From: Campylobacteraceae bacterium
GTDB lineage: Bacteria; Campylobacterota; Campylobacteria; Campylobacterales; Sulfurovaceae
DNA: 64,000 bases
Direction: 5' to 3'
Assembly: GCA_027081355.1 (NCBI GenBank)
Contig: JALWKP010000100.1
Coordinates: 1-64,000 of the forward strand
Positions 2,165 through 57,812 of this stretch are shown here, piece after piece; position 1 is the first letter of the stretch; every line of letters starts with the position of its first letter. The notes below the pieces were generated by a model, which was not told the origin of the DNA, searched no databases, and saw only the letters and a program-made list of their open reading frames with translations. Both the position numbers and the translations under genes were made by a program.

Positions 2165-2189
2165 AGTGAATAGTGAATAGTGAAGAGTT
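2165..2189. repeat. Heptamer array AGTGAAT
   Basis: Three 7-bp units (AGTGAAT, AGTGAAT, AGTGAAG) follow a small GC hairpin (GTGCGGC-TGT-GCCGCA, from 2142) downstream of the ABC-F gene. Each unit contains TGA, and each junction contains TAG. Further degenerate 7-bp-phased stretches lie at 2261-2295 (TTGGTTA-like) and 2323-2357 (ACAAATA-like). Confidence 0.75.
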
Positions 2190-2429
2190 TTGGTAGGCAT
2201 TACTTTATAATGCTTTTGTTACATATATTTGTTATTTCTGTGAAAGCGGGAATTTGGGGAATTGGTTAACTAGTTGATTGGTATATTAGTTATAGGGAAA
2301 GTTTAATTAATATCTGCCAATAACAAATATACAAATACACTAATACACAAGCAACCGTGTATTTCTAATTAAGTTGGGGATGACGGGAAGCTCAAGATAG
2401 AAATTGAATCTCTTTGGAAAGGTTTATAA

Positions 2430-2729
2430 ATGAGTGTTTTATTGGAGTTTGCTATTTTTCCTACCGACCATGGCGAAAGCAAAAGCGAGTATGTGGCGCG
2501 GGTTATTCAAATGATTAAAGAGAGCGGTGTTCCGTATCAATTTACGCCGATGGGAACGATTATAGAAGTGCCGTCAGTTGCAGAAGGTTTGGCTATTGTT
2601 GAAAAAGAGTATGAAATTTTGCAAATAGATTGCAATAGAATATACAGCGCCATTAAAATAGATTACCGTAAAGGGTATAAAAACCGATTGGAGCAGAAGA
2701 TTAAATCGGTTGAGAAGAAGTTATCTTAA
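2430..2729 (+). CDS. MTH1187-family thiamine-binding-like protein
   Basis: This 99-aa protein belongs to the DUF77/MTH1187 family, a small ferredoxin-like fold that forms tetramers and in some members binds thiamine-type ligands. The recognisable pattern is the N-terminal strand with FAIFPTDHGES, the ESGVPYQFTPMGTIIEV hairpin and a helical C-terminus. GGAAAGG precedes the ATG. It stands alone between repeat-rich gaps. I see no TPP riboswitch in the upstream 290 bp, so a role in thiamine handling is only a family-level inference. Confidence 0.8.
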   Translation: MSVLLEFAIFPTDHGESKSEYVARVIQMIKESGVPYQFTPMGTIIEVPSVAEGLAIVEKEYEILQIDCNRIYSAIKIDYRKGYKNRLEQKIKSVEKKLS

Positions 2730-3107
2730 ATTTGGCGCAAGATAGGTGCAGTGAGGACACTGCACCCTACGGTATTTTACCGGTTGCAAAGCTTATGCAT
2801 CCCAAAGCTGGAGCTTTGGGACGATAGAAATTAATAATTTTGCCAATCTGTCATTCTGAGCCGAAGGCGAAGAATCTCTTTAACGCCGTTCTATCGAGAT
2901 TCTTCGCTTCGCTCAGAATGACGTCGAAATGGAATTTTGTATAAAGAATGACTTTTTTCATAGCTTCTGCAGCTTTGGAATGAGAGAAACTATTCACTAT
3001 TTGTGCGGTCGTGCCGCAGCTGCATTTGGATTACAGATTACGGAATGCAGAAAACGGAATATAATCTCTTCCACTAAATCCTGTAACCTAAATCCTCAAT
3101 CCTCAAA
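2730..3107. repeat. Repeat-rich gap with several hairpins
   Basis: No gene is visible in this gap. It holds four structures. A perfect 9-bp hairpin lies at 2745-2766 (GGTGCAGTG-AGGA-CACTGCACC). A CCCAAAGC/GCTTTGGG stem lies near 2802-2822. A long inverted repeat spans about 2850-2924, with arms of roughly 27 bp built on GTCATTCTGAG and GAAGAATCTC, a motif seen dispersed in many bacterial genomes. A GTGCGGTCGTGCCGCA hairpin lies near 3003. The gap ends in the 7-bp array at the apt stop codon. Confidence 0.7.
2745..2766. repeat. GC hairpin, GTGCAGTG type
   Basis: Nine perfect base pairs close an AGGA loop. A sister hairpin at 16761-16780 has the same loop position (AGGG) and differs in the stem by A-T to G-C changes on both arms, so the pairing is kept although the sequence changed. 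Confidence 0.75.
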
Positions 3108-3112
3108 TCATT
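3074..3112. repeat. Heptamer array at the apt stop codon
   Basis: Read on the minus strand, the apt stop codon TGA opens a 7-bp-phased run (TGATTTG, AGGATTG, AGGATTT, AGGTTAC, AGGATTT). It contains stop triplets in several frames. Confidence 0.65.
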
Positions 3113-3647
3113 CCACAATAACAGAATAAACAGGCGTATTTAATTTTTTGGCGCCTTCTAAGAAGCTTAGTTCTATTATAAAGCAGGCTTCTACGCAGTT
3201 TGCGCCTACTCTTTCTATCAGTCTGCTGGCGGCTGCTGAGGTTCCGCCGGTGGCTAAAAGGTCATCGATAAGCAAAACCTTGGCTTTTGAGCCGTCTTCT
3301 TTATTGAACGCGTCTATGTGAACTTCTACTTCGTCAAAGCCGTATTCTAAAGAGTATTTTTCGGAAACGGTAGTGTAGGGGAGTTTGCCTTTTTTTCTGA
3401 TTGGAATAAAGCCAACCCCTAAATGAGATGCAAGCGCAGAGCCGAAAATAAAACCCCTTGCATCAATACCTGCGATGTAATCTAAATTATAATCTTTGTA
3501 TCTTTCAACCAGATGTTCCATTAAAGTTTTGTAAGCTTCCGGATTGTTTAAAAGGGTAGTAATGTCTTTAAACATAATTCCCGGTTTTGGAAAATCGGGA
3601 ATTACTCTTATGGAGTTTTTAATTATTTCTAAATCTTGTCTATTCAT
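3108..3647 (-). CDS. apt: Adenine phosphoribosyltransferase
   Basis: Apt salvages adenine: adenine plus PRPP gives AMP and pyrophosphate, in the cytoplasm. The type I phosphoribosyltransferase signature [17 protein letters not shown] (PRPP-binding loop, about residues 122-138) is intact, as is the N-terminal [20 protein letters not shown] block typical of Apt. The length, 179 aa, is normal. AAAGGA sits 6 nt upstream of the ATG. It lies just downstream of adk on the same strand, which fits AMP being the product of one enzyme and the substrate of the other. Its stop codon forms the first unit of a 7-bp array. Confidence 0.96.
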
Positions 3648-3660
3648 AAAAATCCTTTAT

Positions 3661-3705
3661 TCTAGCTATCTAGCTGCCAGTCGCTAGATTCTAGCACTTA
3701 GATTA
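3661..3705. repeat. Heptamer array between adk and apt (CTAG-bearing)
   Basis: On the minus strand the adk stop TAA begins a run of 7-mers carrying CTA/TAG (TAATCTA, AGTGCTA, GAATCTA, GCGACTG, GCAGCTA, GATAGCT). It ends just before the apt ribosome-binding site. Confidence 0.6.
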
Positions 3706-4302
3706 TATTTCTGCTTTTTCTTTTATAAAAGCTTCCATTTCTTCAACAATAGGTTCTATTGGACGTTCACCGTCTATAACCTTTAATAAATTTTTTTCTT
3801 GATAAAATTTTTCAATTTCTGCTAAAGGTTCTTTATAAATTTTCATTCTATTATAAAATACTTCTTCTTTATCATCACTTCTTTGTTCACCCGGCGCTGC
3901 TTCTGCTGCTCTGCCTAAAATTCTTTCTTTTGCAACTTCTTCGCTTACTCTTACTTCTATTACAGAAAGAAGCTTAATGTCGTTTTCATTTTGCAGCAAT
4001 TTGTCGAATTCTACCATTTGCTCAACACTTCTTGGAAAACCATCTATAACAATAATATCTTTATCACTATTTTTAATGGCATTAATAATTGTGTTTAATA
4101 CAATTTGCAATGGAACTAATTTACCTTTTGAAATATAACTTTCTATCTCTTTGCCAAGCTCACTGCCGCTTGCAACTTCTGCTCTTAGCATATCGCCTGT
4201 TGAGTAATGGTTGATTTTATCGCTGTTTCTCTCTGCAATAATGCTAGCGTCTGTTGTTTTTCCGCTTCCCGGTGCTCCGATAATTAAAAATAGTTTTTTC
4301 AT
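3703..4302 (-). CDS. adk: Adenylate kinase
   Basis: Adk interconverts ATP + AMP and 2 ADP. The P-loop GAPGSGKTT is at about residue 8, the AMP-binding [10 protein letters not shown] is at about 34, and DGFPRS is at about 89. The lid is short: [18 protein letters not shown] replaces the Cys4 zinc or His-Ser-Asp lid, giving the short type (199 aa) common in Campylobacterota. The start has AAGGAGAAGG directly upstream. The gene follows aspS by 12 bp, so both are probably on one transcript. The stop codon runs into a 7-bp repeat. Confidence 0.95.
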
Positions 4303-4314
4303 AACCTTCTCCTT

Positions 4315-6087
4315 TTAACTGTTTATGTTTCTTCTAACTCTTAAGCCAAGCTCTTTTAACTGTTCACCCTCAATATCCGACGGTGCTTGTGTAAGCAGAC
4401 ACTGGCTTCTTTGAGTTTTAGGGAATGCAATAACATCTCTGATACTGTCTGTTTTTGCAAGCAGCATAATCAATCTGTCAAAACCTAGCGCAAAGCCTCC
4501 GTGCGGCGGAGCGCCGAATTTAAGCGCATCTAATAAGAAGCCGAATTTCTCTTGAGCTTCTTCCTCCTCGATTCCTAGAAGTTTAAATACCTGCTCTTGG
4601 ATGTCTTCTTTATGAATACGGATAGAACCGCCGCCAAGTTCTGTGCCGTTTAGCACAATATCGTAAGCAACCGATTTTAAATCTTCTATATCATCGTAAC
4701 TTATATTGCCGTTTTCATCAAGCTGCGGCATTGTAAACGGGTGGTGCAGCGCTTTTATTTTGCCCTCTTCAACTTCAAACATTGGGAAATCTACAACCCA
4801 TACAAAGCGGTATTCGTCTTTATTGATTATATCCATTAATTCTGCTAAATACAGTCTAAAACGCCCCATGTAATCTAAAACGGTTTTTTTATCGCCTGCG
4901 CCGAAGAATACAACATCGCCGATTTTCAATTCGCATCTGTCGATGATTTCTTGCAAGTCGCTTTCGCTAAAGAATTTTGTTAAAGGACCTTTTAGACCCT
5001 CTTCTTTATATTGGAAGTAACCTAAACCTTTAGCACCGAATTTTCTAACATAATCTTCGAAGCCTTTCATTTGGCGTTTGCTAAAGATATTATCGCCGTT
5101 TGGAACTTTTAGCGCTTTGATTCTGTTTTTCTTTGTATCTTTTGCAATGCTGCTGAATATTTCATTTGTAGAGCGTGCAAAAATATCGATAACATCGACC
5201 ATCGGCATATCGAAACGTAAATCAGGTTTATCCGAGCCGTATTTCTCCATAGCCTCTTCGTAAGAGATTCTTTCAAATTTTTCAGGAACCTTATCGTCCA
5301 TGCCGCAGCCGTTAAATATATCTTTTATTAAATTTTCTGCAACCTCTATAACATCATCTTGAGTGCAGAAACTCATCTCTACATCTATTTGGGTAAATTC
5401 AGGCTGTCTGTCGGCTCTTAAATCTTCGTCTCTAAAGCATTTTGCAATCTGGAAGTATCTGTCAAATCCCGAAACCATTAAAAGCTGTTTAAACAGCTGC
5501 GGAGATTGAGGAAGCGCAAAAAATTCGCCCGGAAATACGCGGCTTGGAACCAAGTAATCTCTTGCGCCTTCAGGCGTGCTTTTGGTTAAAACCGGTGTTT
5601 CCACCTCTAAAAAACCCTGATTTGCCAAAGAGTTTCTTGCCGCAATTGCAGCTTTAGAGCGAAGCTTAAAAATATTATGCATTCTTTGGGTTCTTAAATC
5701 TAAAAATCTATATTTTAATCTGATTTCTTCGTTAACTTTCGGGTCGTCTAAATCAAACGGCATCGGCAAAGAGCGGTTTTCTATTGTTAATTTATCTACA
5801 ACAATTTCTATTTTTCCCGTTTTTAACTTAGGGTTTTCTAAACCTTCGCCTCTTGCTCTTACTTTACCTGTTGCAATTAATACGAATTGGTCGCGCACAT
5901 CTTCTGCAACTTTATGCGCTTCTTCGCTGTCAGCAGGGTCGCAAACAAGCTGAACCACTTCGTCGTTGTCTCTAATATCAATAAATATGACACCCCCGTG
6001 ATCCCTGCGGCTAGACACCCAACCAGCTACGGTAACCTCTTGTCCTATCAACTCTTCGTTTACATCTGCACAATAATGCGTTCTCAC
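4315..6087 (-). CDS. aspS: Aspartyl-tRNA synthetase
   Basis: AspS is a class IIb synthetase that charges tRNA-Asp. At 590 aa it has the bacterial architecture: an N-terminal OB-fold anticodon domain ([19 protein letters not shown]), a class II core with motif 2 [23 protein letters not shown]-like residues near 220, the inserted GAD domain, and motif 3 GFALGFDRL near 535. Campylobacterota generally lack AsnRS and use AspRS that also charges tRNA-Asn with the GatCAB pathway. A non-discriminating role is therefore likely but not proven here. It is transcribed towards adk and apt. Confidence 0.96.
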
Positions 6088-6144
6088 TGTTCACATCCTA
6101 AAAATTATTTTTTTGCGATTATATCTAAAAAATATAAATTAGGG

Positions 6145-6179
6145 TTGAGGTTTGAGGATTGAGGATTGAGGTTTGAGGG
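6145..6179. repeat. Heptamer array GAGGATT/GAGGTTT
   Basis: Five units of TTGAGGW-type 7-mers lie in the aspS-murA gap. They sit on the far side of the GC hairpin at 6194-6210 from the GTGATAA-type array at 6211-6260, so the hairpin is bracketed by two different arrays. Confidence 0.75.
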
Positions 6180-6193
6180 TGTTGGGTATGTAG

Positions 6194-6260
6194 GCGCGGC
6201 TGTGCCGCGCAACCAATAACCAATCACTATCACTTATCACTTATCACTTATCACTATCAA
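6194..6260. repeat. GC hairpin plus heptamer array at the murA stop codon
   Basis: A perfect 7-bp stem GCGCGGC-TGT-GCCGCGC (6194-6210) is followed by 7-mers AACCAAT x2, CACTATC, ACTTATC x3 and ACTATCA. Read with murA (minus strand), the stop codon and what follows are TGA TAG TGA TAA, four stops in a row in frame. Confidence 0.85.
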
Positions 6261-7522
6261 CTCTTTTTCCTAACTACTTTAGCCCCTAAATTAGATAATT
6301 TCTCTTCCAATCTGTCGTATCCTCTGTCTAAGTGGTAGATTCTTCTTATTTTTGTGGTTCCTTTGGCGGCTAGGGCGGCGATTACCAGGGCGGAGCTGGC
6401 TCTTAAATCTGTTGCCATTACTTCTGCGCCTATTAACTCTTTTACGGGTCTAACGGCAGCTACATTTCCTTTTAGCCAAATATCTGCACCTAAGCGGTTT
6501 AATTCGCTAACATGCATAAAGCGGTTTTCAAAAAGGCGCTCTTCTATTAAGCTTTCTTCTTTTGCCAAAGTTGCAACCGCCATAAATTGCGCTTGCATAT
6601 CAGTAGGAAAGCCTGGATATTCTGTTGTTATTATGTTAACCCCTCTCAATTCATCTTTTGGGATTATCATAATTTCATCTTTTTTAATATCAAAATCGCA
6701 CCCCATGCTTTCAAGCTTTTCAATAGAGGTTTGAATATGTTCTATATTTACTTTTTTTAGAGTGATTTTAGAATTAGTAATGGCGCCTACGCAAAGGTAA
6801 GTTCCTGCTTCGATTCTATCGGGTATAATTTCTATGGGTTCGTTAAATTCTAAAGGTTTTCCGTTTGTTCCGTGCACCACTAGACGGTCTGTTCCTATGC
6901 CTTCTATTTTTGCGCCTCCCATATTTAGCATTTCGCAAAGCTGAGCAACTTCGGGTTCTTTTGCTGCATTTACAATTTCTGTAATCCCTTCTGCCATAGC
7001 TGCTGCCATTACCGCATTTTCGGTTCCGCCCACCGTGATTTTATCAAATATTACTTTTGTGCCGTGCAAACCGTTTGGGGCTTTAGCAACAACATATCCT
7101 TGCTCCAGCGTAACTTCTGCACCCAGAGCTTCTGCTGCTTTTATATGTAAATCTATCGGTCTTTGCCCGATTGCACAGCCGCCGGGCAAGCTGACTTCAC
7201 AATGTTTAAACCGGCTAAGCAGGGGTCCTAAAACCAAAATAGAAGCTCTCATTTGCGCAACGATTTCGTAAACTGCTCTTGTTGAATTTATGGTTGAACA
7301 ATCTATTTTGGCTTCTGTATCGTTATGCTCTACTTTAGCTCCAAGCATTGTAAGCAGTTTTAAGAGGGTTCTAATATCTACAACATTGGGTAAATTTTTT
7401 AATATTACCTCTTTATCGCTTAAAATAGTTGCTGCAATTATTGGCAGGGCTGCATTTTTAGCTCCGCTTATTATAACTTCTCCGCTTAATTTATGTCCGC
7501 CTTCTATTTCTAAATAATCCAT
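6257..7522 (-). CDS. murA: UDP-N-acetylglucosamine 1-carboxyvinyltransferase
   Basis: MurA performs the first committed step of peptidoglycan synthesis, transferring enolpyruvate from PEP to UDP-GlcNAc. The active-site loop [10 protein letters not shown] is intact, with the catalytic Cys (the fosfomycin target) at residue 116. The two inverse alpha/beta barrel domains are complete (421 aa). I start at ATG 7522 because the family N-terminus ([15 protein letters not shown]) begins there and AGGAAT lies upstream; an in-frame extension upstream looks non-coding. It lies alone upstream of a repeat-filled gap before aspS. Confidence 0.95.
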
Positions 7523-7826
7523 AATTGATATTCCTAATGTATAATATTTATAAGTATGGTATTTTATCAAAATGATATAAAAGATAGCAGAATAAATTTA
7601 AAAAAGTTCTTATCATATCTCTAAAAAACGGATAATAATGCCATAAATGCACATTAATAAATATTATTTTTATATTAACTAATGAAATTTTTGATATTTT
7701 TAGATATATTTAATAAAAAATTTGATATTGTGTTAAAAGGATATTATATTTCTTCCTTATTTAGTGTGTAAAGATGAAGATTAATGGTATATATTATAAG
7801 GGTTTTTATATTTTTTGGGAGGGACT
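7523..7826. promoter_or_regulatory. AT-rich divergent intergenic region
   Basis: These 304 bp separate murA (minus) from the unknown gene at 7827 (plus). The sequence is very AT-rich with several TATTAT/TATAAT-like boxes (for example near 7790 ahead of the plus-strand gene), so it presumably holds both promoters. I see no operator, repeat or RNA gene in it. Confidence 0.45.
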
Positions 7827-8411: not shown

Positions 8412-8414
8412 TTT

Positions 8415-8547
8415 GAAAGCTAAGAGCTTAGAGCTGAGAGTATAGGGCAAACAAGGTGGCTTCGCCTTTTTTTAAGCGGCAAAGCTGCAAATATTAAATG
8501 CGGAACAGCCGCACAATCAGCTCTTAGCCCCCGGCTCTAAGCTTATT
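8415..8547. repeat. Composite array-hairpin element
   Basis: A left 7-bp array (GAAAGCT, AAGAGCT, TAGAGCT, GAGAGTA; 8415-8442) and a right, inverted array (GCTCTTA, GCCCCCG, GCTCTAA, GCTTATT; 8520-8547) flank GGTGGCTTCGCC, a T run, AAGCGGCAAAGCTGC and AAATATTAAA. The same core and the same inverted arrays recur at 52738-52844, and inverted relatives lie at 48654-48791. Confidence 0.75.
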
Positions 8548-8597
8548 TAGATTCTTTGTTTTGCTCAAGTGGCATTATCTTCTATTGATGCTAAGTA

Positions 8598-10033: not shown

Positions 10034-10035
10034 TT

Positions 10036-12583: not shown

Positions 12584-12584
12584 A

Positions 12585-16687: not shown

Positions 16688-16744
16688 AGTGAATAGTGAT
16701 TAGTGAATAGTGATTAGTGAATAGTGATTAGTGATTAGTGAATG
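16688..16744. repeat. Heptamer array AGTGAAT/AGTGATT x8
   Basis: Eight 7-mers of type AGTGAWT lie downstream of the CAP gene. They follow an imperfect GC hairpin (GTAGGCGCGGATGTGCTGCAC) and precede the hairpin at 16761-16780. Confidence 0.85.
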
Positions 16745-16796: not shown

Positions 16797-16824
16797 CTAT
16801 TAACTATTAACTATTAACTATTAA
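16797..16824. repeat. Heptamer array CTATTAA x4 encoding the nfu stop
   Basis: Four perfect CTATTAA units (TTAATAG on the minus strand). The last three codons and the stop of nfu (Val-Asn-Ser-stop) are read from the array, and further units supply stops in the other frames. Confidence 0.9.
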
Positions 16825-17101
16825 CCAACCCTTCCGGCAGCGTATCTTCTTGACCTGGGAATATGCTTTCTACTGTAATTTCGGGGTGAATTAACTCTCT
16901 TAACTTTTTTTGCACAACCATTTTTGTTGTCATTGTGCTCATAGAGCAGCCGTTGCAAGTGCCTCCTAATTCAATGTAAATTACTCCGTCTTTAACACCG
17001 AGCAATTTCATTGTTCCTTCGTGAGACTTTATATATTCCTCGATTTTAGGGAGGTAATTTGATGTTGCAATGTATAAATCTTCATCTGAAAACGGTATCA
17101 T
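16814..17101 (-). CDS. NifU-like (Nfu) Fe-S scaffold protein
   Basis: This 95-aa protein is a stand-alone Nfu domain. The cluster-binding CxxC appears as GGTCNGCSMSTMTTK (Cys at about residues 54 and 57), which bridges a 4Fe-4S cluster between two subunits and hands it to apo-proteins. I start at ATG 17101 (MIPFSDEDL), as the upstream extension looks non-coding. It lies apart from the suf genes 17 kb away, but is probably part of the same Fe-S pathway. Its C-terminal residues come from a 7-bp array. Confidence 0.9.
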   Translation of the reverse strand: MIPFSDEDLYIATSNYLPKIEEYIKSHEGTMKLLGVKDGVIYIELGGTCNGCSMSTMTTKMVVQKKLRELIHPEITVESIFPGQEDTLPEGLVNS

Positions 17102-17173: not shown

Positions 17174-17767
17174 ATGCGCTGTTTTAGTTGCGGTAAGCTC
17201 TCTTTTGAACCGGTTTGCAAAGAGTGCGTAAAAGATTTTTTAACACCGGAAATGATAGAAACCGAAATAGGCAATTTGGAAGTAGTCAGTTTTTTTGATT
17301 ACTATTTAACTGTTGAATTTATTAAAAGCAAATATATATCAAGCGGTTATAGGGTTTATAAATTTATTGCAAAGAAATTTTTTGCTCCTTTTATAAAGGC
17401 GTATGTTGAACATTTGGATAATAAAGAGATTTATTTAATAGGTGTAGATGAAAATATAAGCAGAGGATATTCTAATGTTGCACTTCTTAGCGAATTTGCC
17501 GCGCGTAAAGCTAAAATAAAAGCATTACACGGCGTTTTGAGGGCAAAAAACAGGGTGCAGTATGCAGGTAAATCTTTGGAGTTTAGGCTTAATAATCCGC
17601 GAAACTTTAAATATACCGGACCAAAAAATATACAAGCAATTTTAATAGATGACACAACCACTACCGGAACCACGCTAGAAGAGGCGCATAGGGTTTTAAA
17701 AGAAAATGGCGTGAATGTTCATTTTGCCCTGACGGTTGCCAATGCGAGAGAAGGAGTGGATTATTAG
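17174..17767 (+). CDS. ComF-like phosphoribosyltransferase-domain protein
   Basis: An N-terminal zinc-ribbon-like Cys set (CFSCGKLSFEPVCKEC) precedes a type I phosphoribosyltransferase domain with AILIDDTTTTGTTLEEA (PRPP loop, about residues 155-171). This is the ComF layout. In naturally transformable bacteria ComF helps DNA uptake and processing in the cytoplasm; in other hosts its role is uncertain. The length, 197 aa, is typical. It is divergent from nfu, with 72 bp between them. Its stop TAG is followed in frame by TAA from a 7-bp array. Confidence 0.85.
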   Translation: MRCFSCGKLSFEPVCKECVKDFLTPEMIETEIGNLEVVSFFDYYLTVEFIKSKYISSGYRVYKFIAKKFFAPFIKAYVEHLDNKEIYLIGVDENISRGYSNVALLSEFAARKAKIKALHGVLRAKNRVQYAGKSLEFRLNNPRNFKYTGPKNIQAILIDDTTTTGTTLEEAHRVLKENGVNVHFALTVANAREGVDY

Positions 17768-17795
17768 TAATTGATAGTTGATAATGGATAATTGA
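17768..17795. repeat. Heptamer array TARTTGA x4
   Basis: Units TAATTGA, TAGTTGA, TAATGGA and TAATTGA begin at the base after the comF-like stop codon and are full of stop triplets. Confidence 0.75.
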
Positions 17796-28552: not shown

Positions 28553-28615
28553 AAAGCTAAAAGCTGAAAGCGTAAAGCATAAAGCTTAAAGCCAAAAGCT
28601 AAAAGCTGAATGCTG
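28553..28615. repeat. Heptamer array AAAGCNN x9
   Basis: Nine consecutive 7-mers: AAAGCTA, AAAGCTG, AAAGCGT, AAAGCAT, AAAGCTT, AAAGCCA, AAAGCTA, AAAGCTG, AATGCTG. The first five bases are fixed in eight of nine, while the last two vary freely. Confidence 0.9.
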
Positions 28616-28858
28616 GCAAAGAATCGCATTCTGTCATTCTCGCGAAAGCAGGAATCCAGGGTTTTTTTATGATATAAAAGATAGGAATCAAAACTTTTAC
28701 AGTTTTCCGCTTTCAGTTTTCTGCACGGAATGACGGATTGCATTCTTTCTTTATAAGAATATCCAAAAAAAGTGGCAAAAGGTATAATGTGTATCAATTT
28801 TTAGAAATTATTTGAGAATTGGTATATTGGTGTATTTGTATTAAAAAAATACACCAAT

Positions 28859-28886
28859 AACCAATAACTAGTAACCAGTAACCAAT
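28859..28886. repeat. Heptamer array AACCAAT/AACTAGT
   Basis: AACCAAT, AACTAGT, AACCAGT and AACCAAT lie 3 bp beyond the stop codon of the TAXI receptor gene (minus strand) and abut the 11-bp hairpin at 28827-28857. Confidence 0.8.
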
Positions 28887-28889
28887 ACA

Positions 28890-29837
28890 CTACTTAATTA
28901 ATCCAGCTTCTTTAAATGCCTTTAAAGCGCCCGGGTGCAACAGTGAATGGTCAAATCCTTTTAGCAAATCTTCTTTTGTCAGGTTTTTGTATGCAGGGTG
29001 GAGTTTTTTGAAATCTTCGAAATTGTCCAGTATCGCTTTTGTCATTGTGTAAACCGCTTTTTCACTCTCTTTACTGCTGGTTACTAAAACCGCTTTTACA
29101 CCAAATGTTACGGTGTCGTGCTTTACACCTTTATACATATTTGCAGGAATTGTTCCCCACTCGTAGTAACTTTTTTCTTTAACCAATTTTTGAGCTGCCG
29201 GCACATCTTTTAGAGAGATTAAATCAATATCTACAGAGTTTGCTGCATCTTTAAAGTTTGCTGTCGGGTGACCCACCATATAGAAGTAGCCGTCTATCTT
29301 TTTATCTTTAAGAGCATTTGGACACTCTGAAGATTTTAGCTGTTCGGGCTTTATATCGGTAATGTTTAATTCGTTAGAAGTTTTAAACAGCAGTTTTACG
29401 GTTGCTTCGTTTCCGCTGCCCGGGTTGCCGATATTTATAATTTTACCCTTTAAATCGGCAAATTTTTTAATATTGCTATCTTTTCTAACCGCTAAAGTTA
29501 AAAGTTCGGGGTGGATAGACATTACAACTTTTAAATCTTTAAAAGGTTTATCTTTAAATTTACCTTCGCCGTGAACCGCCTGATAAACAATATCGCTTTG
29601 CGCAATACCGAAATCGAGCTCGTCTGCCTGAATTGTTTTAATATTGTAAACGCTTCCGCCTGTTGATTCTACGGTGCATTTTATATGGGTCTCTTTTTGC
29701 GTTTTGTTCATCATTTTACAAATCGCGCCGCCGGTTGGATAATAAACCCCCGTAACGCCGCCCGTGCCGATTGTTATAAATTCTGTTGCGTAAATTGATG
29801 ATGATAATATTGCCGCTAATAATGTTTTTTTAAGCAT
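28890..29837 (-). CDS. TAXI family TRAP solute receptor
   Basis: A periplasmic binding protein of 315 aa with signal peptide MLKKTLLAAILSSSIYA. It shows the TAXI hallmarks FITIGTGGVTGVYYPTGGAICKMMN and CTVESTGGSVYNIKTIQADELDFGIAQSDIVYQAVHG, and GDPGSG-like INIGNPGSGNEATV. It delivers the substrate to the fused permease downstream. AGGAG lies before ATG 29837. The ligand is unknown; TAXI receptors have been linked to glutamate and other carboxylates. Confidence 0.93.
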   Translation of the reverse strand: MLKKTLLAAILSSSIYATEFITIGTGGVTGVYYPTGGAICKMMNKTQKETHIKCTVESTGGSVYNIKTIQADELDFGIAQSDIVYQAVHGEGKFKDKPFKDLKVVMSIHPELLTLAVRKDSNIKKFADLKGKIINIGNPGSGNEATVKLLFKTSNELNITDIKPEQLKSSECPNALKDKKIDGYFYMVGHPTANFKDAANSVDIDLISLKDVPAAQKLVKEKSYYEWGTIPANMYKGVKHDTVTFGVKAVLVTSSKESEKAVYTMTKAILDNFEDFKKLHPAYKNLTKEDLLKGFDHSLLHPGALKAFKEAGLIK

Positions 29838-29993: not shown

Positions 29994-30021
29994 AACTATT
30001 CATTTCTCACTCTTCACTCAA
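29994..30021. repeat. Heptamer array at a stop codon (CACTCAA type)
   Basis: AACTATT, CATTTCT, CACTCTT, CACTCAA. Read on the minus strand the stop TGA of the Mur-like gene lies in the first unit and more stops follow. Confidence 0.65.
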
Positions 30022-43687: not shown

Positions 43688-43793
43688 GTGCGGCTGTATC
43701 GCACGGATAAATAGATAGTGAAGAGTGATTAGAAATTAGAGATTAGTGATTAGTGATTAGTGATTAGAGATTAGAGATTAGAGATTAGAGAAG
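43688..43793. repeat. GC hairpin plus 11-unit heptamer array
   Basis: A GTGCG-loop-CGCAC hairpin (43688-43704) after GTAG is followed by 11 consecutive 7-mers from 43717: AGTGAAG, AGTGATT, AGAAATT, AGAGATT, AGTGATT x3, AGAGATT x3, AGAGAAG. Two unit types alternate in blocks, as expected from slippage of a mixed array. Confidence 0.9.
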
Positions 43794-43829
43794 GGATGCG
43801 AAACTTATTGGTTGCATTAACCGTAGATT

Positions 43830-43947
43830 CCCAATTAAGTTGGGAATGACGGGATGCAATTCTTTGCCGGCTTTTAGCTTTATGCTTTCAATTTTCCATA
43901 AAAACGCGGCGAAGCCGCACCTTGTTGGCTCTAAGCTCTAAGCTTTT
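43830..43947. repeat. Mixed repeat stretch ahead of the flavoprotein gene
   Basis: A TTCCCAA-TTAAG-TTGGGAA hairpin followed by TGACGGGATGC (near 43829; a relative lies near 2368) is followed by GCGGCGAAGCCGC (near 43904) and GCTCTAA GCTCTAA 7-mers (43928-43942) just before the ribosome-binding site of the next gene. Confidence 0.7.
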
Positions 43948-43966
43948 GTATAAAAGGAAATTCCAA

Positions 43967-47229: not shown

Positions 47230-48634
47230 TGCAATTACATACTTTATATTCGTAGGATTGCTTGGGTACTACTTTATAACCACCGCACAATGGTATAGCT
47301 ATAAACTAAACAGGGTTATTTTTCACCACACAAAGCCTTTTTGGAATATCGCTTACTTTTTGGTTCCGTTTGCAGCGTATGAATCTTTGAGTTTTGCCAA
47401 GCTGAATATCTATCAGCCTGTTTTGGTTGTGCTTTATGCAATTGCTCTTTTTTTATGGTATAAAAAGCTTGATAAACCGCTGGTTTGGACAGGCAGGGTA
47501 AAAAGATTTTTTGCAATTTTGGCGATTTTGGCTATTTTTACCTTTTTTGTTACAGGGTTGCCGCTTTTAATAGTGCCGCTTCTTGGAGCTTGGATAATTT
47601 CTGTTTTGATTGAAAAGCTGCTTTTTGTGGGCTACAAAAACCAGGCAAAAGACAAACTTTTAAATAGAGACGATTTAATCGTAGTAGGGGTGACTGCAAG
47701 TTACGGCAAAACAAGTATGAAAAACTTTATTGCCCATATTCTTTCTAAAAAGTATAATGTTTACGCTACGCCGCGCTCTGTAAATACGCTTGGCGGGGTT
47801 GTAAAAGATATTAATGCCGATTTGTCTGATGATGCGCAAATTTATGTTGTGGAGATGGGTGCCAGAGAGGTTGGCGATATTTACGATATAACCTCTTTGG
47901 TTGAGCCGCACTATGCAGTTGTGGGCGTTGTGGGGCCTGCGCATATTGAGTATTTTAAAACGCTAGAGCGCATTAGAAATACAAAAATGGAGATAATCAA
48001 ATCCAAGCGCCTCAAGCACGCGTGGGTGCATATTAGCGCTAAAGTTAAATCTAACAATTCAAAAATTGAGCTTTTTGGGCATGATATTAAAGATATTAAA
48101 GCCGATTTGAACGGTGTATGTTTTAGCCTGAATGAGGATTACTACTGCGCAAATATTTTGGGCGATTTTAATGCGATAAATATTGCCGCGGCAATTAAAG
48201 TTGCCAAAGAGCTGGGCGTAGAAGAGGAGAAAATCAAAGAGGCTCTGCAAGAGTTAAAGTCGGTTGAGCACAGATTGCAAAAAATCGAAGCGGGCGGAAA
48301 ACTGATAATTGATGACAGCTTTAACGGAAATATCGACGGAATGCTCTCTTCTTTTGAATTGGCTTCAACTTATGGGGGCAGAAAAGTTGTAATTACACCG
48401 GGGCTTGTAGAGGTTGATGACGAACTTAATATTAAAGTTGCAAAAAAGGCAAACGAAGTGTTCGATTTGGTTGTGGTTACAGGCGAGCTGAATTATGAAA
48501 TATTTAAAAATTATGTAAATAACGATAAATTAATGCATTTAAAAGATAAAAGCCAATTCGAGAGCTTTTTAGCCCAAAACACAAAAGCCGGCGATTTAAT
48601 ATTGTTTGCAAATGATGCGCCGAGTTTTGTTTAA
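47216..48634 (+). CDS. murF: MurF-type ligase with membrane N-terminus
   Basis: It should add D-Ala-D-Ala to UDP-MurNAc-tripeptide. The ATP site VGVTASYGKTSMKNFIAHIL, the VEMGAREVGDI block, the hinge HIEYFKTLERIRNTKMEI and C-domain VEHRLQKIEAGGKLIIDDSFNGN are all intact. But residues 1-150 hold four hydrophobic segments (YFIFVGLLGYYFI, YFLVPFAAYESL, VLVVLYAIALFLWY, FFAILAILAIFTFFV) in place of the usual substrate-binding domain. AAGGA 5 nt ahead favours ATG 47216. A Mur N-terminal-like protein is encoded separately at 30018. Confidence 0.9.
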   Translation: MIWVNAITYFIFVGLLGYYFITTAQWYSYKLNRVIFHHTKPFWNIAYFLVPFAAYESLSFAKLNIYQPVLVVLYAIALFLWYKKLDKPLVWTGRVKRFFAILAILAIFTFFVTGLPLLIVPLLGAWIISVLIEKLLFVGYKNQAKDKLLNRDDLIVVGVTASYGKTSMKNFIAHILSKKYNVYATPRSVNTLGGVVKDINADLSDDAQIYVVEMGAREVGDIYDITSLVEPHYAVVGVVGPAHIEYFKTLERIRNTKMEIIKSKRLKHAWVHISAKVKSNNSKIELFGHDIKDIKADLNGVCFSLNEDYYCANILGDFNAINIAAAIKVAKELGVEEEKIKEALQELKSVEHRLQKIEAGGKLIIDDSFNGNIDGMLSSFELASTYGGRKVVITPGLVEVDDELNIKVAKKANEVFDLVVVTGELNYEIFKNYVNNDKLMHLKDKSQFESFLAQNTKAGDLILFANDAPSFV

Positions 48635-48649
48635 AGCGGAGCTTTAAAC
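48629..48649. terminator. Hairpin over the murF stop codon
   Basis: GTTTAAAGC-GGA-GCTTTAAAC is a perfect 9-bp stem whose left arm contains the murF stop TAA. It lacks a T run, so it may stabilise or end the transcript only with help. Confidence 0.55.
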
Positions 48650-48653
48650 AAAA

Positions 48654-48791
48654 GCTTAGAGCTTAGAGCTCAGAGCGGAGAGCTGATTGTGCGGCTTTGC
48701 CGCGCTCAAAAAAATTGCGGCTTTGCCGCTTAAAAAATGGCGAAGCCACCTTGTTAGCTCTAGGCTCTAAGCTCTTAGCTCTGAGCTTCCA
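48654..48791. repeat. Composite array-hairpin element before the thioredoxin gene
   Basis: A left array (GCTTAGA x2, GCTCAGA, GCGGAGA, GCTGATT; 48654-48688) and a right inverted array (GCTCTAG, GCTCTAA, GCTCTTA, GCTCTGA, GCTTCCA; 48757-48791) bracket two copies of GCGGCTTTGCCGC and TGGCGAAGCCACC. This is the reverse orientation of the elements at 8415 and 52738. Confidence 0.85.
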
Positions 48792-48804
48792 AAAAAGGAG
48801 TTGT

Positions 48805-49122
48805 ATGAATTTAGAAGAGATAAAGAACAAAATAGCTTCAAGCGATGGAGTAATGCTCTATTTCTGGGGTGATAACTGCGCGGTTTGCGATGCGCTTAAG
48901 CCTAAAATAAAAGAGGCATTTGAAGAGAACTTTCCAAAAATTGAGCAAATTTATATAGATGCAAAAAACAATCAAGATATTGCAGCAAATTTTAGTGTAT
49001 TTTCTATTCCGACCACAATTGTATTTTTAGACGGCAAAGAGTTTGCCAGAGAGGGCAGGGCAATGAGTGTTTCTGGGCTTGTAGAAAAAATAAAAAGACC
49101 TTATGAGATTATGTTTAGTTAA
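48805..49122 (+). CDS. Thioredoxin-fold protein
   Basis: A 105-aa cytoplasmic thioredoxin-like protein with active site WGDNCAVCDALKP (CAVC, about residue 26), cis-Pro FSIPTTIVFLDG (about 71) and the EGRAMSVSGLVEKI end. The CAVC pair and lack of the WCGPC consensus set it apart from the main thioredoxin; it is probably a dedicated reductase. AAGGAG is 5 nt ahead of ATG 48805. It lies right after the composite repeat. Confidence 0.87.
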   Translation: MNLEEIKNKIASSDGVMLYFWGDNCAVCDALKPKIKEAFEENFPKIEQIYIDAKNNQDIAANFSVFSIPTTIVFLDGKEFAREGRAMSVSGLVEKIKRPYEIMFS

Positions 49123-50213: not shown

Positions 50214-50214
50214 T

Positions 50215-50712: not shown

Positions 50713-50738
50713 TTATCTCTTCCAACTTGTTATTTGGA

Positions 50739-50744
50739 TATAAT
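50739..50744 (+). promoter_or_regulatory. -10 box for the 50777 lipoprotein gene
   Basis: TTTGGATATAATTG contains TATAAT 33 bp ahead of the ATG, in the gap divergent from mobB. Confidence 0.45.
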
Positions 50745-50776
50745 TGTATCGAAAAAATATCTAAAAGGAAATTTAT

Positions 50777-52707: not shown

Positions 52708-52737
52708 AGTCCCAATTCCAATTTTCCCAAAATTTTA

Positions 52738-52844
52738 AAAAAGCTAAGAGCTTAGAGCCAATAGGGTGGCTTTACCTTTTTTTTAAGCGGCTTAGCCGCA
52801 AATATTAAACGAGGCGAAAGCTACACCTCTGGCTCTAAGCTTTA
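52738..52844. repeat. Composite array-hairpin element
   Basis: A left array (AAGCT, AAGAGCT, TAGAGCC) and a right inverted array (GCTCTAA, GCTTTAA; 52831-52844) flank GGTGGCTTTACC, a T run, AAGCGGCTTAGCCGC and AAATATTAAA. It matches the element at 8415-8547 in order and orientation. Confidence 0.8.
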
Positions 52845-52882
52845 AACTGCGCCAGAAATAACAGCAACAAAATTAAAACACT

Positions 52883-53155
52883 CTAAATATACAACCCATA
52901 TAAAACTGATTTTAAAATGTTTAAAACAAAAATGATAACAATCGGCGATAAATCTATTCCGCTTATAACCACAAAAGGCATATATCGGCTCACTAATGCG
53001 TATGCCGGCTCGGTTAGTTTGCGGATTGCCTGCACAATTTGGTTATACGGGTCTGGATTTACAAAGCTTAAAAGCGCTGAAATTATTATTATCCAGATAT
53101 AAATATCTATTAATGTTGCCAAAAGTCCTAAAGTCGAATTTACTATTAAATGCAT
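52883..53155 (-). CDS. yggT: YggT family membrane protein
   Basis: A 90-aa protein with two transmembrane segments (LATLIDIYIWIIIISALLSFVNP and SPIVIIFVLNILKSVLYGLY) linked by a basic loop with PDPYNQIVQAIRKLTEPAYA, the YggT signature. The family is linked to osmotic shock survival and, in plastids, to cytochrome b6f maturation. It overlaps the upstream gltX-like gene by 10 bp. Confidence 0.92.
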   Translation of the reverse strand: MHLIVNSTLGLLATLIDIYIWIIIISALLSFVNPDPYNQIVQAIRKLTEPAYALVSRYMPFVVISGIDLSPIVIIFVLNILKSVLYGLYI

Positions 53156-54273: not shown

Positions 54274-54360
54274 GATAAATCCTGTATTTAAATTTACTAT
54301 CAAAATTATTATATACTAATATTAATTAATAAAAAGAGTAATATGGGAGTAAAAATGAAA

Positions 54361-54390
54361 AAGGAGCGACTTTATTTATCGTCGCTACCT
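54361..54390 (-). terminator. Terminator of the ppa transcript
   Basis: On the minus strand AGCGAC-loop-GTCGCT followed by CCTTTTT forms a hairpin that overlaps the stop codon of the small lipoprotein gene. Confidence 0.7.
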
Positions 54391-54551
54391 CCGGTTACAG
54401 TATTTACAACTGCACCGCCTGCAGAGCCGGCAACATCTAAAGTGGTCGAAGCGGTTTGACCGACTAGTTTAATTGGAGCAGTTACAATTTGTGTGCAGCC
54501 GCTAAGCATAATTAGCGTAAATATGGCAGATATTACTATTTTCAAAATCAC
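54372..54551 (-). CDS. Small lipoprotein downstream of ppa
   Basis: A 59-codon gene starts with GTG inside the ppa stop (GTGA overlap). A TTG 6 nt later has better spacing from AAGG and is the alternative start. The product has signal sequence IVISAIFTLIMLSGC with lipobox LSGC, then a short Thr/Val/Gly-rich mature part of about 40 residues ending GGSDDK. The Gly-Ala rich stretch (VAGSAGGAVVNTVTGG) recalls small Gly-zipper lipoproteins. A terminator overlaps its end, which supports it being the last gene of the ppa operon. Confidence 0.72.
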   Translation of the reverse strand: MILKIVISAIFTLIMLSGCTQIVTAPIKLVGQTASTTLDVAGSAGGAVVNTVTGGSDDK

Positions 54552-55069
54552 GCCTTATAGTTTGCTATTGCTTTTTCTAAAATTTCTGCCGCTTCTTTTT
54601 TGCCTTTGAAACCTGTAACCTTAACCCATTTATTCGGCTCTAAAATTTTGTAAGTTTCAAAGAAATTTTTAATTTTGTTAAGCGTATGCTCTGGTAAATC
54701 GGTAATTTCTTTAATTTCTTTAAAAGTAGGATCTATTTTTTCGTGAGGAACCGCAAGAAGTTTTTCATCTATTCCGTTTTCGTCTTCCATTAAAAGCACA
54801 CCGATTAATCTGCATTTAATAAAGCTGCCTGGAACTAACGGATATTCGCCTAAAACCAAAACATCCGCAGGATCGCCATCATCAGATAGGGTATTTGCTA
54901 CAAAGCCGTAATTTGCAGGGTAAAACATTGCAGAAAACATTACTCTATCCACTTCGATAGCACCGCTGTCTTTATCTAATTCGTATTTGATATTAGAACC
55001 GTAAGGAACTTCGATTATCGCTTTTACTTCATCAGGGCATTTACCCGGACCTATTTTATTAATATCCAT
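54548..55069 (-). CDS. ppa: Inorganic pyrophosphatase
   Basis: A family I soluble pyrophosphatase, 173 aa, which hydrolyses PPi made by biosynthetic reactions. Active-site residues are seen in VIEVPYGSNIKYELDKDSGAIEVDRVM and the metal-binding DDGDPADVLVLGE (about residue 65), with the Lys in EIKEITDLPEHTLNKIKNFFETYKILEPNKW. It leads a short operon with the small lipoprotein gene. Confidence 0.96.
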   Translation of the reverse strand: MDINKIGPGKCPDEVKAIIEVPYGSNIKYELDKDSGAIEVDRVMFSAMFYPANYGFVANTLSDDGDPADVLVLGEYPLVPGSFIKCRLIGVLLMEDENGIDEKLLAVPHEKIDPTFKEIKEITDLPEHTLNKIKNFFETYKILEPNKWVKVTGFKGKKEAAEILEKAIANYKA

Positions 55070-55237
55070 ATTGTTTCTCCATTAAAATTTTAGCCATAAT
55101 TATACTCAGTAGAGTTTAAAGCTTGTTTATCTTTCTTTTAATACCAATAAATGGATATATTTAAATATTAGAAAAGCTAAAGAATCTTTAAAAAAATTTT
55201 GATAAAATTCCCTTTTAAAAATGTAAAAAGGTTTATT

Positions 55238-55576
55238 ATGAGTATTAAAGCAAATGTTGAAAATATTTTAATTCAATTAAACTATCCTGTTAATGATGCT
55301 ACGACAAAACAGTTAGAAAACATTGCAAACAACACTAACGGTTTTTTTGATTTTGCTAAGCATTTATTTTCTTTAAATGATGATTTAAAAGCAGTTAATG
55401 CTGTTGTTGCAATGTCTAATTCTAAAGATTATTTAAAATTAAAAAGTAATTCTAAGTTAGATTCTGAAATTGAAAAATTTGAAGAGACAATAAATTCTTG
55501 GGCACACAAATATAAAGCCAAATTACAAAAAGTAGAAAATAAAAATACTTATTACATTATTGGCAAAAACTCTTAA
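55238..55576 (+). CDS. Uncharacterised protein coupled to the UvrD-type helicase gene
   Basis: A 112-aa protein with no signal or membrane segment. The first 55 residues look helical (MSIKANVENILIQLNYPVNDATTKQLENIANNT), and the rest is Lys- and Ser-rich with a helical mid-part. I do not recognise a family. Its stop overlaps the start of the helicase gene (TAATG), so the two are translated together; a role as accessory to the helicase is possible but not shown. ATG 55238 matches the ribosome-binding site better than the open upstream frame. Confidence 0.7.
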   Translation: MSIKANVENILIQLNYPVNDATTKQLENIANNTNGFFDFAKHLFSLNDDLKAVNAVVAMSNSKDYLKLKSNSKLDSEIEKFEETINSWAHKYKAKLQKVENKNTYYIIGKNS

Positions 55577-57618
55577 TGCCTCTTAGCCGGCTTAATAAAC
55601 AGCAGCTTGAGGCTGCTACTGCAGATTTTGGTAAAAATTTAATTATTGCAAGTGCTGGAACGGGTAAGACTTCGACAATAGTCGGGAGGATTGCATATCT
55701 TTTAAAGAATGGCACAGAACCGAATAAAATTTTGCTGCTTACCTTTACAAATAAAGCTGCTGCTGAAATGACAGCAAGGCTTAAACGTTATTTTGATTCT
55801 TCTGTTATTGATAAAATAGAAGCCGGGACTTTTCATGCTGTTTCTTACCGCTGGCTTAAAGCTCGTAACCCAAAGCTTACTTTAAAACAGCCGGGTGAAT
55901 TAAAAACACTTTTTAGAACTGTTTACGAAAAAAGGGCATTCCACCGTTTAAATTTAGGATTAAAACCTTTTTCTGCAACTTATCTTTACGAATTGTATTC
56001 ACTGTATCAAAACTCTTGTCTTGATAGTTTTAGCAGCTGGATGCAGGAAAAATATGAAGAACATAAACCATTATTAGATATTTACCAAGATATTATCGAT
56101 GAGTTTGAACAGACAAAAGAAGAATACGGTTTTGCATCGTTTAACGATTTACTAATTTTGGCAATAAAAAGCATAAAAGAAAAGCCTATTATTTTTGATG
56201 AAGTTTTAGTAGATGAGTATCAGGATACAAATACGCTGCAAGAAGCTTTAATAAATACGCTTAACCCTAAGTCTCTTTTTTGTGTAGGAGATTATGACCA
56301 GAGTATATATGCATTTAACGGTGCTAATATAGAAAATATTTCAACTTTTGCAGAGAGATACAGAGGCGCAAAAGTTTACTCTTTATCTGTAAATTACCGC
56401 TCTAGCGAAGCGATTTTAAATTTGGCAAACAGGGTAATTAGCAAGAATGAAAGAATTTACCCAAAAGAGTTAAAAGTGGGCAGGGTAGGGGAGTCCATAC
56501 CTCCGAAGCTTTTAATTTACGATACTCTTTTTGAACAATATCAATCGATTGCCAAACTTATAAAATCTAGCGATACATCTTATGAAGATATAGCTATTAT
56601 TTTTAGAAATAATTCAAGTGCAGACGGGCTTGAAGCAAGCCTTAGAGAGTTGAATATCCCCTGCAAAAGAAAAGGGGGCACAAGCTTTTTTGATGCGAAA
56701 GAGATAAGGTTCATTTTGGACATTGTTTCTATTGTCACCAACCCAAAAGATTTAATGGCGTTTATCAGCGTTTTTGAATATGCAAGGAATGTCGGCGCTT
56801 CTTTGGCAAAAGATATATTTACATCGCTTAACCATTTTGGCGAGGGGTGTTTAATAAAAGGAATTTTAAAGCCAACAGTTATGGAATTGCCTAAATTAAA
56901 AAGAGTAAATAACAGGCAGCTTGGGCTTTTTGATGACAGTGAGGAGATTGGATTAGCTTCCAGGTTCGCATTTATGGGTTTTAGCAAAGAGATTTTAACC
57001 CATCCTATAATTAAAATTTCAAAAATCGAAAAAGAGGCGCTGCAGTTTTTTGAAAATTTTTACAAATTAATAAAAGAGATAAATCCAAACAGCAGTTCTT
57101 ATGTTATTGTAAATAAAATAATCACATCTAAACTTTATGAATATATAGTAGATTTGCTTTCTTCTCAAAGAGCTAAATTAAAAACCGGCGAAATCGATTT
57201 AAATAAAAAAGAAGAGTCGAAAAAAAGAATTATGCATAAAGCAAGACTATTGCTTGAACTTTCTAAACCGTATAGGGAGCTTAGCAGATTTTTAAATGCT
57301 ATGATTTTAGGCGGCGGAGAACTTAGTGAAGGGGAGGGGGTTAATCTGCTCACAGTGCATGCTTCTAAAGGATTGGAGTTTAAAGATGTATATATTGTTG
57401 ATTTGGCCGATAATCGCTTTCCTAACCGTAAATTAATGAGTAAAAACGGCGGAATAGACGAAGAGAGAAGACTTTTCTATGTAGCCGTAACAAGAGCCCA
57501 AAGCAGACTTTATCTCTCTTTTGCTAAATATGATAAAATTAGAAAAGCAGAGTATCAACCGTCTCAATTTTTATTTGAAGCAGGGCTGTTAAGGAAGAAA
57601 GAAGAGATTAGAGATTAG
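55576..57618 (+). CDS. UvrD/Rep-type superfamily 1 DNA helicase
   Basis: A 680-aa SF1A 3'-5' helicase. Motif Q/I: LNKQQLEAA, ASAGTGKTSTIVGRI (about residue 28). Ia: LLLTFTNKAAAEMTARL. II: LVDEYQDTNTLQ (about 213). III: GDYDQSIYAFNGA. IV: LSVNYRSS. V/VI: LLTVHASKGLEFKDVYIVDL and DEERRLFYVAVTRAQSRLYLS. It acts in repair or restart of replication. The last codons (Ile-Arg-Asp-stop) are read from a 20-copy 7-bp array, so length at the C-terminus may vary between strains. Confidence 0.93.
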   Translation: MPLSRLNKQQLEAATADFGKNLIIASAGTGKTSTIVGRIAYLLKNGTEPNKILLLTFTNKAAAEMTARLKRYFDSSVIDKIEAGTFHAVSYRWLKARNPKLTLKQPGELKTLFRTVYEKRAFHRLNLGLKPFSATYLYELYSLYQNSCLDSFSSWMQEKYEEHKPLLDIYQDIIDEFEQTKEEYGFASFNDLLILAIKSIKEKPIIFDEVLVDEYQDTNTLQEALINTLNPKSLFCVGDYDQSIYAFNGANIENISTFAERYRGAKVYSLSVNYRSSEAILNLANRVISKNERIYPKELKVGRVGESIPPKLLIYDTLFEQYQSIAKLIKSSDTSYEDIAIIFRNNSSADGLEASLRELNIPCKRKGGTSFFDAKEIRFILDIVSIVTNPKDLMAFISVFEYARNVGASLAKDIFTSLNHFGEGCLIKGILKPTVMELPKLKRVNNRQLGLFDDSEEIGLASRFAFMGFSKEILTHPIIKISKIEKEALQFFENFYKLIKEINPNSSSYVIVNKIITSKLYEYIVDLLSSQRAKLKTGEIDLNKKEESKKRIMHKARLLLELSKPYRELSRFLNAMILGGGELSEGEGVNLLTVHASKGLEFKDVYIVDLADNRFPNRKLMSKNGGIDEERRLFYVAVTRAQSRLYLSFAKYDKIRKAEYQPSQFLFEAGLLRKKEEIRD

Positions 57619-57742
57619 AGATTAGAGATTAGAGATTAGAGATTAGAGATTAGAGATTAGAGATTAGAGATTAGAGATTAGAGATTAGAGATTAGAGATT
57701 AGAGATTAGAGATTAGAGATTAGAGATTAGAGATTAGAGATT
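57603..57742. repeat. Perfect 20-copy heptamer array AGAGATT
   Basis: Twenty uninterrupted copies of AGAGATT (140 bp) begin inside the last codons of the helicase gene and provide its stop (TAG at 57616-57618). Every third unit repeats the same reading frame, so TAG falls in all three frames. Confidence 0.98.
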
Positions 57743-57786
57743 GTTGTGCAAATTGGCTCTAAGCCCTTGGCTTTCTGCTCTAAGCT

Positions 57787-57812
57787 TTTAATATTGTTCA
57801 TTTTGAACAATA
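57787..57812. terminator. Palindromic terminator between uvrD-like and tetR genes
   Basis: AATATTGTTCA and TGAACAATATT form an 11-bp stem with a tiny loop between convergent genes. The half-site TTGTTCA also resembles the TetR operator half-site, so this could be a fifth binding site. Confidence 0.65.

Follow-up and report, generated by a model that had tools for sequence, protein, structure and literature searches.

Why do tandem repeats in bacterial spacers favor a unit of seven bases? Heptamers have been known since 2007 to be over-represented among the tandem repeats of bacteria, and we know of no tested cause. The question is raised here by 64 kb of contig C100 (the window) of a 1.86-Mb metagenome-assembled genome (MAG) from the Campylobacterota (181 contigs; G000), in which a preliminary description had listed 15 spots with 7-bp tandem runs of differing units. 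We found two kinds of array: simple arrays (class A) and arrays of AGAGCNN or AAAGCNN (class B), mostly in inverted pairs, which are the arms of a dispersed hairpin element, the AGAGC element. Our preferred reading, to which we give a probability of about 0.6, is that in this lineage the period is mostly inherited from the 5 + 2 spacing of the arms of this element (a 5-nt word followed by two free bases) and has been spread by 7-nt slippage plus drift.

The AspS of this deep-sea-vent-type bacterium has 91% identity to that of Campylobacteraceae MAGs and 88-89% to those of Nitratifractor sp. and further MAGs, which places it in the Campylobacterota close to Sulfurovaceae/Nitratifractor. The own-genome sample comprises 446 kb including the window (382 kb from other contigs). 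For comparison we used 148 kb of the nearest relative, a sister species (G008), and smaller samples of others; 12 members of the genus were compared. Gene borders come from our own hexamer-based caller, whose 5′ ends are approximate, and arrays in the window were called with Tandem Repeats Finder. In the spacers of the own genome, bases match at lag 7 with a frequency of 0.329 against an expected 0.289 (z = 19.5), and lag 14 has a z of 21.0; the remaining lags within 2-15 give z values of -4 to 9.5. This is the genome-wide excess over neighboring lags that the preliminary description had proposed looking for. Coding DNA has no lag-7 excess. Arrays occupy ~4.6% of spacer bases, and when they are masked, spacer lag 7 falls to background; the signal therefore comes from separate arrays and is not spread diffusely through the spacers.

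The 446 kb hold 62 lag-7 arrays and at most six at each other lag within 4-14. The pattern is not confined to the window, a possibility also raised earlier: The 382 kb outside it contain 51 lag-7 arrays (0-6 per other lag). Among runs of at least 10 matches in the window, 10 are at lag 7, three at lag 9, and none at lags 4, 5, 6, 8, and 10; a Markov-3 null gives 0.2 at lag 7. Period-7 arrays are present in 45 out of 205 spacers of at least 60 bp, and the predicted genes contain just two, both low-complexity. Over-representation of 7 bp and location in spacers or gene ends with avoidance of coding DNA, the two marks of the general class of bacterial heptameric intergenic repeats, are both found here. 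Period-7 arrays number 14 in the 148 kb of G008 and 13 in ~1.1 Mb of named relatives; the samples from other genus members contain few. The excess runs through the whole genome here and is strong in G008, but most other relatives show it weakly or not at all.

Such arrays could be an assembly artefact, or chance low complexity of an AT-rich MAG. The assembly is fragmented, with at least one contig (L182) ending in an array; however, Markov nulls yield almost none, the AGAGC element is found in many independent assemblies, and some single-contig genomes of the phylum have heptamer arrays too. We find this explanation hardly credible. At the contig end in question (L182 6412-6433) the sequence terminates within an AGAGATT array, and arrays probably cause assembly breaks.

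Out of the 15 listed spots, 13 give period-7 rows: 2164, 3087 (listed at 3074), 6141, 6223 (listed at 6211), 16688, 16797, 17768, 28553, 28848, 43727, 48653, 48756, and 57603. The other two do not: The "CTAG-bearing" array at 3661 has no tandem row, and at 30001 there are two copies only. Weaker rows beyond that list begin at 8418, 28696, and 43928. All had been taken as one kind of array, which does not hold for those at 28553, 48653, and 48756, whose AGAGCNN or AAAGCNN units are arms of the dispersed element. Copies and remnants of this element in the window are as follows:

8417-8553, minus strand: AGAGC element copy with heptamer arms and inner G+C-rich hairpins (R1, 124.7 bits)
28553-28615, plus strand: diverged AGAGC-type arm, AAAGCNN x9 (model match 28575-28733, 35.4 bits, E = 1.8e-6)
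43928-43944, minus strand: remnant right arm, GCTCTAA x2.4 (Tandem Repeats Finder and sequence)
48652-48788, plus strand: intact AGAGC element (144.2 bits), arms at 48653-48684 and 48756-48787 with G+C-rich hairpins between
52731-52859, minus strand: AGAGC element copy (78 bits)
57709-57787, plus strand: reduced AGAGC element (44.3 bits, E = 6.6e-9); the last part of the (AGAGATT) array forms its left arm, and its right arm is canonical GCTCTNN

The AGAGC element is a spacer element of 130-140 bp in which [AGAGCNN]3-5 and [NNGCTCT]3-5 enclose G+C-rich hairpins. Its aligned consensus is AAGCT-(NA)-[AGAGCNN]n-GATTG-TGCGGCTGCGCCGCG-TTTAATATT-TGCGGCTTTGCCGCT-TAAAAAA-GGCGAAGCCACCTTG-TT-[AGCTCTNN]n-AAGCTT. 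The alignment and covariance model (R1) rest on 23 copies from the own genome and G008, and the E-values are rough. Two of its internal hairpins show strong pairing throughout the alignment. RNAalifold also backs a third, which is shorter and has three pairs; a wider register for this one was ruled out by pair counts. One copy (48652-48788), folded as RNA, reaches -79.3 kcal/mol against -50.5 for shuffles (z = -7.1). R1 matches occur in 10 out of 41 genomes and are strong in seven of the 12 genus members (own genome, 73; G008, 64; G005, 64; G009, 57; G004, 53; G001, 33; G010, 21), totals that count many copies of this near-palindromic element on both strands. There are a few matches in G003 and G006 and none in G002, G007, and G011; outside the genus, weak ones appear in G014 only.

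The element often fills the gap from stop to start codon, the start codon lying 12-39 nt away. Location between co-directed genes (25 out of 33 copies) is not enriched compared with all spacers (72%). Rfam 15 gives no match above the gathering score in the window, which includes intact AGAGC elements. A miniature inverted-repeat transposable element would have terminal inverted repeats, a target-site duplication, and a relation to an autonomous transposon; of these, the alignment shows inverted arms. The unpaired GTAG of GTAG-tagged repetitive extragenic palindromes (REPs) and bacterial interspersed mosaic elements (BIMEs) is absent from the alignment ends. Strict searches found a GTAG-type palindrome in two spacers only, and we therefore claim no general tie to REPs.

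The arms consist of a constrained word and a free doublet. Across three orthologous element pairs, 13 out of 44 doublet sites have changed, compared with two out of 134 core sites (P = 2e-7, Fisher's test), and the element at 48652 differs internally from its G008 orthologue by four substitutions, every one of them in a doublet. If the units were exact slippage copies, changes should be equally frequent at each of the seven positions; the 5-nt word is therefore being kept, presumably by selection for pairing or for binding something that reads one word per 7 nt. The arm doublets are not complementary beyond chance (0.327 vs. 0.343 shuffled) and therefore lie opposite one another as internal loops that separate helices of 5 bp. 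This also led us to reject foldback or template-switch copying of one arm from the other. There is no double compensating change in the arm helix, and the word is therefore conserved in sequence, not only in pairing.

Arm length changes in whole units, in agreement with the fixed 7-nt step proposed in the preliminary description. The left arms of G005 and G004 differ by exactly one heptamer in the element upstream of a gene whose product starts MINPLRGMKDF, presumably akin to histidyl-tRNA synthetase. In another G004 copy (L366) the left arm is homogenised to (AGAGTTA)4, and the right arm is canonical.

Several side observations concern this element. The region around 48652 (47974-49121) is 95% identical to G008, including the spacer element, against 68-89% for the majority of the other long segments of the window with a match in G008; a recent exchange between the two species is possible. 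At L009 10156-10240, L021 2476-2530, and L184 16710-16770, a second hairpin with AACNGAN arms is nested inside an outer AGAGC element. A small inverted repeat (such as CCTTTCGAAGAAAGG or TTTAGCCGTTAGGCTAAA) often separates the element from the ribosome-binding site (L352, L353, L357, L363). In G014, which belongs to another genus, AGAGCNN arms flank the different core of a further dispersed element, which also has additional inverted repeats on the outside, AAGTTCAAAAAGGCTAAGAGC ... GCTCTTTGCCAATAGAAGACTTAAACTTG (L251, L259, L261). An uncultured IMG/VR viral contig with phage-like genes (3300006226_000108) carries several hairpins with AGTGRTT heptamer arms and a shared core AAAGCAAAGACCAAAGCAGTCTTTTGTCTTT (L343 1238-1406, 2980-3067, and 5433-5528; L342 3038-4187); their architecture is that of the AGAGC element, and their core is unrelated.

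Class A comprises simple, often perfect arrays in spacers, many of which begin at or inside gene ends; their units include AGAGATT, AGTGAWT, TTGAGGW, AAGRRTT, AACYATM, and others. Those in the window are

2164-2188, plus strand: TAGTGAA x3.6, 26 bp past a stop codon; absent in the orthologous spacer of G008
3087-3106, minus strand: weak array, purine strand ATTGAGG x2.9, 1 bp from the 3′ end of gene 3108-3647
6141-6178, plus strand: TTGAGGW x5.4; the orthologous spacer of G008 is without array
6223-6259, minus strand: purine strand AGTGATA x5.6, at the 3′ end of gene 6257-7522
16688-16741, plus strand: 14-bp higher-order unit AGTGAATAGTGATT (Tandem Repeats Finder)
16797-16825, minus strand: purine strand TTAATAG x4, overlapping the stop of gene 16814-17101
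17768-17795, plus strand: weak array, TARTTGA x4, directly past the stop of gene 17252-17767
28848-28887, no strand assigned: AACCART x5.6, at the 3′ end of gene 28890-29837
43727-43791, plus strand: AGWGATT x9.3, with half an AGAGC element to the right (weak model match 43760-43952, 36.5 bits, E = 9e-7)
57603-57742, plus strand: perfect (AGAGATT)x20, its first 16 nt lying within the end of helicase gene 55576-57618

The junction at 57603, which has the longest array, connects the two classes. In G008 it holds a short GATTGAG array at the stop codon followed by a complete AGAGC element (L136:13246-13363, 58.5 bits), whose left arm contains AGAGATA. The own genome has only the right arm and a reduced center, directly past the AGAGATT array. 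The next gene abuts in G004 and G007, and in G001 and G009 a few bases lie between the stop codon and the end of the next gene. In this one case a simple array replaces an element arm, and the wholly de novo origin implied in the preliminary description does not suit a site at which the sister species has a complete element. An apparent association of class A AGWGAWT arrays with element halves (seven out of 17 vs. 16 out of 155, P = 0.0025) was not length-matched, and we do not rely on it.

The period is constant under a varying sequence, as the preliminary description held, and units differ or are absent at the same junctions in sister species. Of the class A arrays at 2164, 6141, 6223, 16688, 16797, and 17768, G008 has none at the junctions compared, and several other genus members have almost no spacer at the 16688 junction. 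The units are not, as had been claimed, unrelated. Among the 31 consensus units of all arrays there are 34 one-substitution links, compared with ~11.5 in each of two random nulls (P < 0.001), and the largest component of the network takes in 26 of the 31 (random, ~7); AGAGCTT, AGAGATT, and AGTGATT are successive single steps. The units are therefore related, and class A consists of related repeats expanded in gaps, not of unrelated repeats made from scratch.

A fixed step with a varying sequence is also expected from a 7-nt template, and the preliminary description had suggested a templating enzyme. A telomerase-like enzyme, or a reverse transcriptase of the retron or diversity-generating retroelement type, could add heptamers de novo. 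Neither G000 nor G008 has a match to RVT_1 (PF00078), and the units are related to each other and to the dispersed element; such an enzyme is very improbable here. G004, alone in the genus, has a reverse transcriptase match (L337, G004:C37:2026-2637; 736-aa open frame).

The alternative of pure replication slippage, in which a 7-nt step preferred because of the polymerase footprint acts on any local seed without mismatch repair, has been proposed before for bacterial heptameric repeats and accounts for the perfect 20-unit array, the 14-bp higher-order units, and the different units of sister species at the same junction. It also agrees with an excess of period 7 in bacteria that are not related and a polymerase-contact hypothesis, both cited in PMC4692102, and with the lack of MutL, none of which scores above cut-off anywhere in the genus. 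However, it does not predict that unlinked loci and other species should share a pattern of five fixed and two free positions, nor does it predict noncomplementary doublets, or a one-step unit network, and relatives without MutL mostly lack arrays. We regard it as possible but doubtful. Loss of MutL was rejected as the cause of differences between species, MutL being below cut-off in the whole genus. Y1_Tnp genes are present in G000 and seven relatives, including relatives with few arrays; the number of these REP-associated tyrosine transposase genes does not track array number.

The placement of arrays is strongly asymmetric. Within -25 to +6 nt of a gene border we find 27 array edges at 3′ ends (299 borders available) and none at 5′ ends (311 borders). 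Read 5′ to 3′, the purine-rich strand leads away from the gene border and into the spacer, whichever way the gene points: The counts are 34/4 at left borders and 13/29 at right borders (P = 7.5e-8, Fisher's test). Provision of stop codons in all three frames was discarded as the reason for seven, since any period not divisible by three suffices.

This orientation would also be consistent with iterated sites, at which a protein or RNA would recognize one 5-nt word per 7 nt, with different words for different or drifting readers; so would the strong conservation of the core relative to the doublet, the stable fold, and the frequent position of the element in the short gap before a start codon. 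On this view the arrays at stop codons would have a role in translation or at the 3′ ends of mRNAs, an idea put forward for the TAACTGA repeats of Beggiatoaceae. Yet there is no known reader, class A arrays are conserved neither in place nor in sequence between sisters, which is odd for functional sites, and the arm helix is without double compensating changes. We consider iterated sites unlikely as the explanation.

Returning to inheritance of the period from the element, we note that each arm of the AGAGC element carries a 5-nt word every 7 nt, with doublets that drift freely and a word number that changes in 7-nt steps. We propose that simple arrays would arise when 7-nt-spaced arms or tails mutate and slippage then homogenises and lengthens them in whole 7-nt steps. 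They would persist only where no reading frame is disrupted, or at a stop codon, across which a duplication does not alter the protein. A wider version, in which the 5 + 2-code element is read by a putative protein or RNA and is the nursery of heptameric repeats, with similar hairpins as a possible general source, is a rather doubtful speculation.

Several points weigh against this proposal. Direct evidence that an array derives from an arm comes from a single junction (57603), with no more than a hint of it at 43727, and no element remnants were found beside the class A arrays at 2164, 6141, 6223, 16688, 16797, and 17768. Shared constraints outside the scope of the nulls, such as stop codons and purine richness, could partly explain the unit network. 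The absence of MutL is genus-wide and leaves the abundance of arrays in only some species unexplained. Class A arrays with similar units are present in distant Campylobacterota without the AGAGC element, and other phyla also have heptamer repeats in their spacers (PMC4692102, PMC4679880); the element therefore cannot be the general cause of period 7. A reversed-pattern control in the distant Campylobacterota is not independent, AGTGATT and AGAGATT being mirror-symmetric. On the distant genomes we note that G069, G072, G101, G106, and other members of genus g32, of another family, have AGTGATT arrays of up to ~20 units, in single-contig genomes without matches to the AGAGC pattern.

One further repeat family lies in the window: At 2836-2982 there is a dispersed inverted repeat built on GTCATTCTGAGCGAAGCGAAGAATCT, a CGTC-REP-like palindrome found at ~40 places in G008.

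Because one genus offers species with and without arrays, and orthologous junctions in different states, the question "why seven" becomes testable: what reads or pairs the 5-nt word, and whether simple arrays start from element arms. The slippage side could be addressed by comparing (AGAGATT)n with the 6-nt (AGAGAT)n and the 8-nt (AGAGATTA)n. The arrays are also a fast-evolving marker that changes in whole 7-nt steps. If the wider version is true, heptamer-armed hairpins of unrelated sequence, such as also those of G014 and the viral contig, could be a general source of the bacterial heptamer excess.

The likeness to known heptameric spacer repeats that was drawn in the preliminary description is apt. 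The short tandemly repeated repetitive (STRR) sequences of heterocystous cyanobacteria have period 7, several units per genome, and a mainly intergenic location, all of which they share with the arrays described here. Calothrix heptamers are mentioned in PMC4692102. The GGGAATC repeats of Xanthomonas and GGGGAYT repeats of Nostoc are heptameric, have heterogeneous units, lie in spacers, and vary between sister species; many overlap a stop codon or lie at most 50 bp from it, and in Xanthomonas the G-rich strand is sense after genes and antisense before genes (PMC4692102). Our arrays likewise overlap stop codons, and their purine strand points from gene to spacer. In contrast, the Xanthomonas and Nostoc repeats form one G-rich unit family able to form G-quadruplexes, whereas we find ~31 consensus units without regular G-tracts (AGGGGTG occurs once). 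No heptamer-armed hairpin element is described for them (PMC4692102).

The TAACTGA repeats of marine Beggiatoaceae have one sequence in two to six copies, mostly just before start codons, and relatives of TAACTGA are rare there as repeats (PMC4679880). They resemble the present arrays in being heptameric, direct, and intergenic and in occurring in sulfur bacteria, and TAACTGA resembles our AACNGAN units; no TAACTGA array was found in the sampled contigs, where edges abut 3′ ends 27 times and 5′ ends never. Like REPs and BIMEs (PMC3733652, PMC2817692), the AGAGC element is a dispersed spacer palindrome with G+C-rich hairpins, and REP-like palindromes share these spacers; GTAG- and CGTC-tagged REPs coexist in Sulfurovum (PMC3733652). 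Unlike them (20-40 bp palindromes), it is 130-140 bp long, with several hairpins, heptamer arms, and neither tag at its ends. Within the same phylum, the GTGATTA heptanucleotide of Helicobacter pylori (van Belkum 1999, a single example as cited in PMC4692102) is a rotation of AGTGATT, a main unit here. We found no description of a dispersed element with constrained 5 + 2 heptamer arms able to become simple arrays. Heptameric spacer repeats are an established class, to which the arrays belong; the element with heptamer arms appears to be new.

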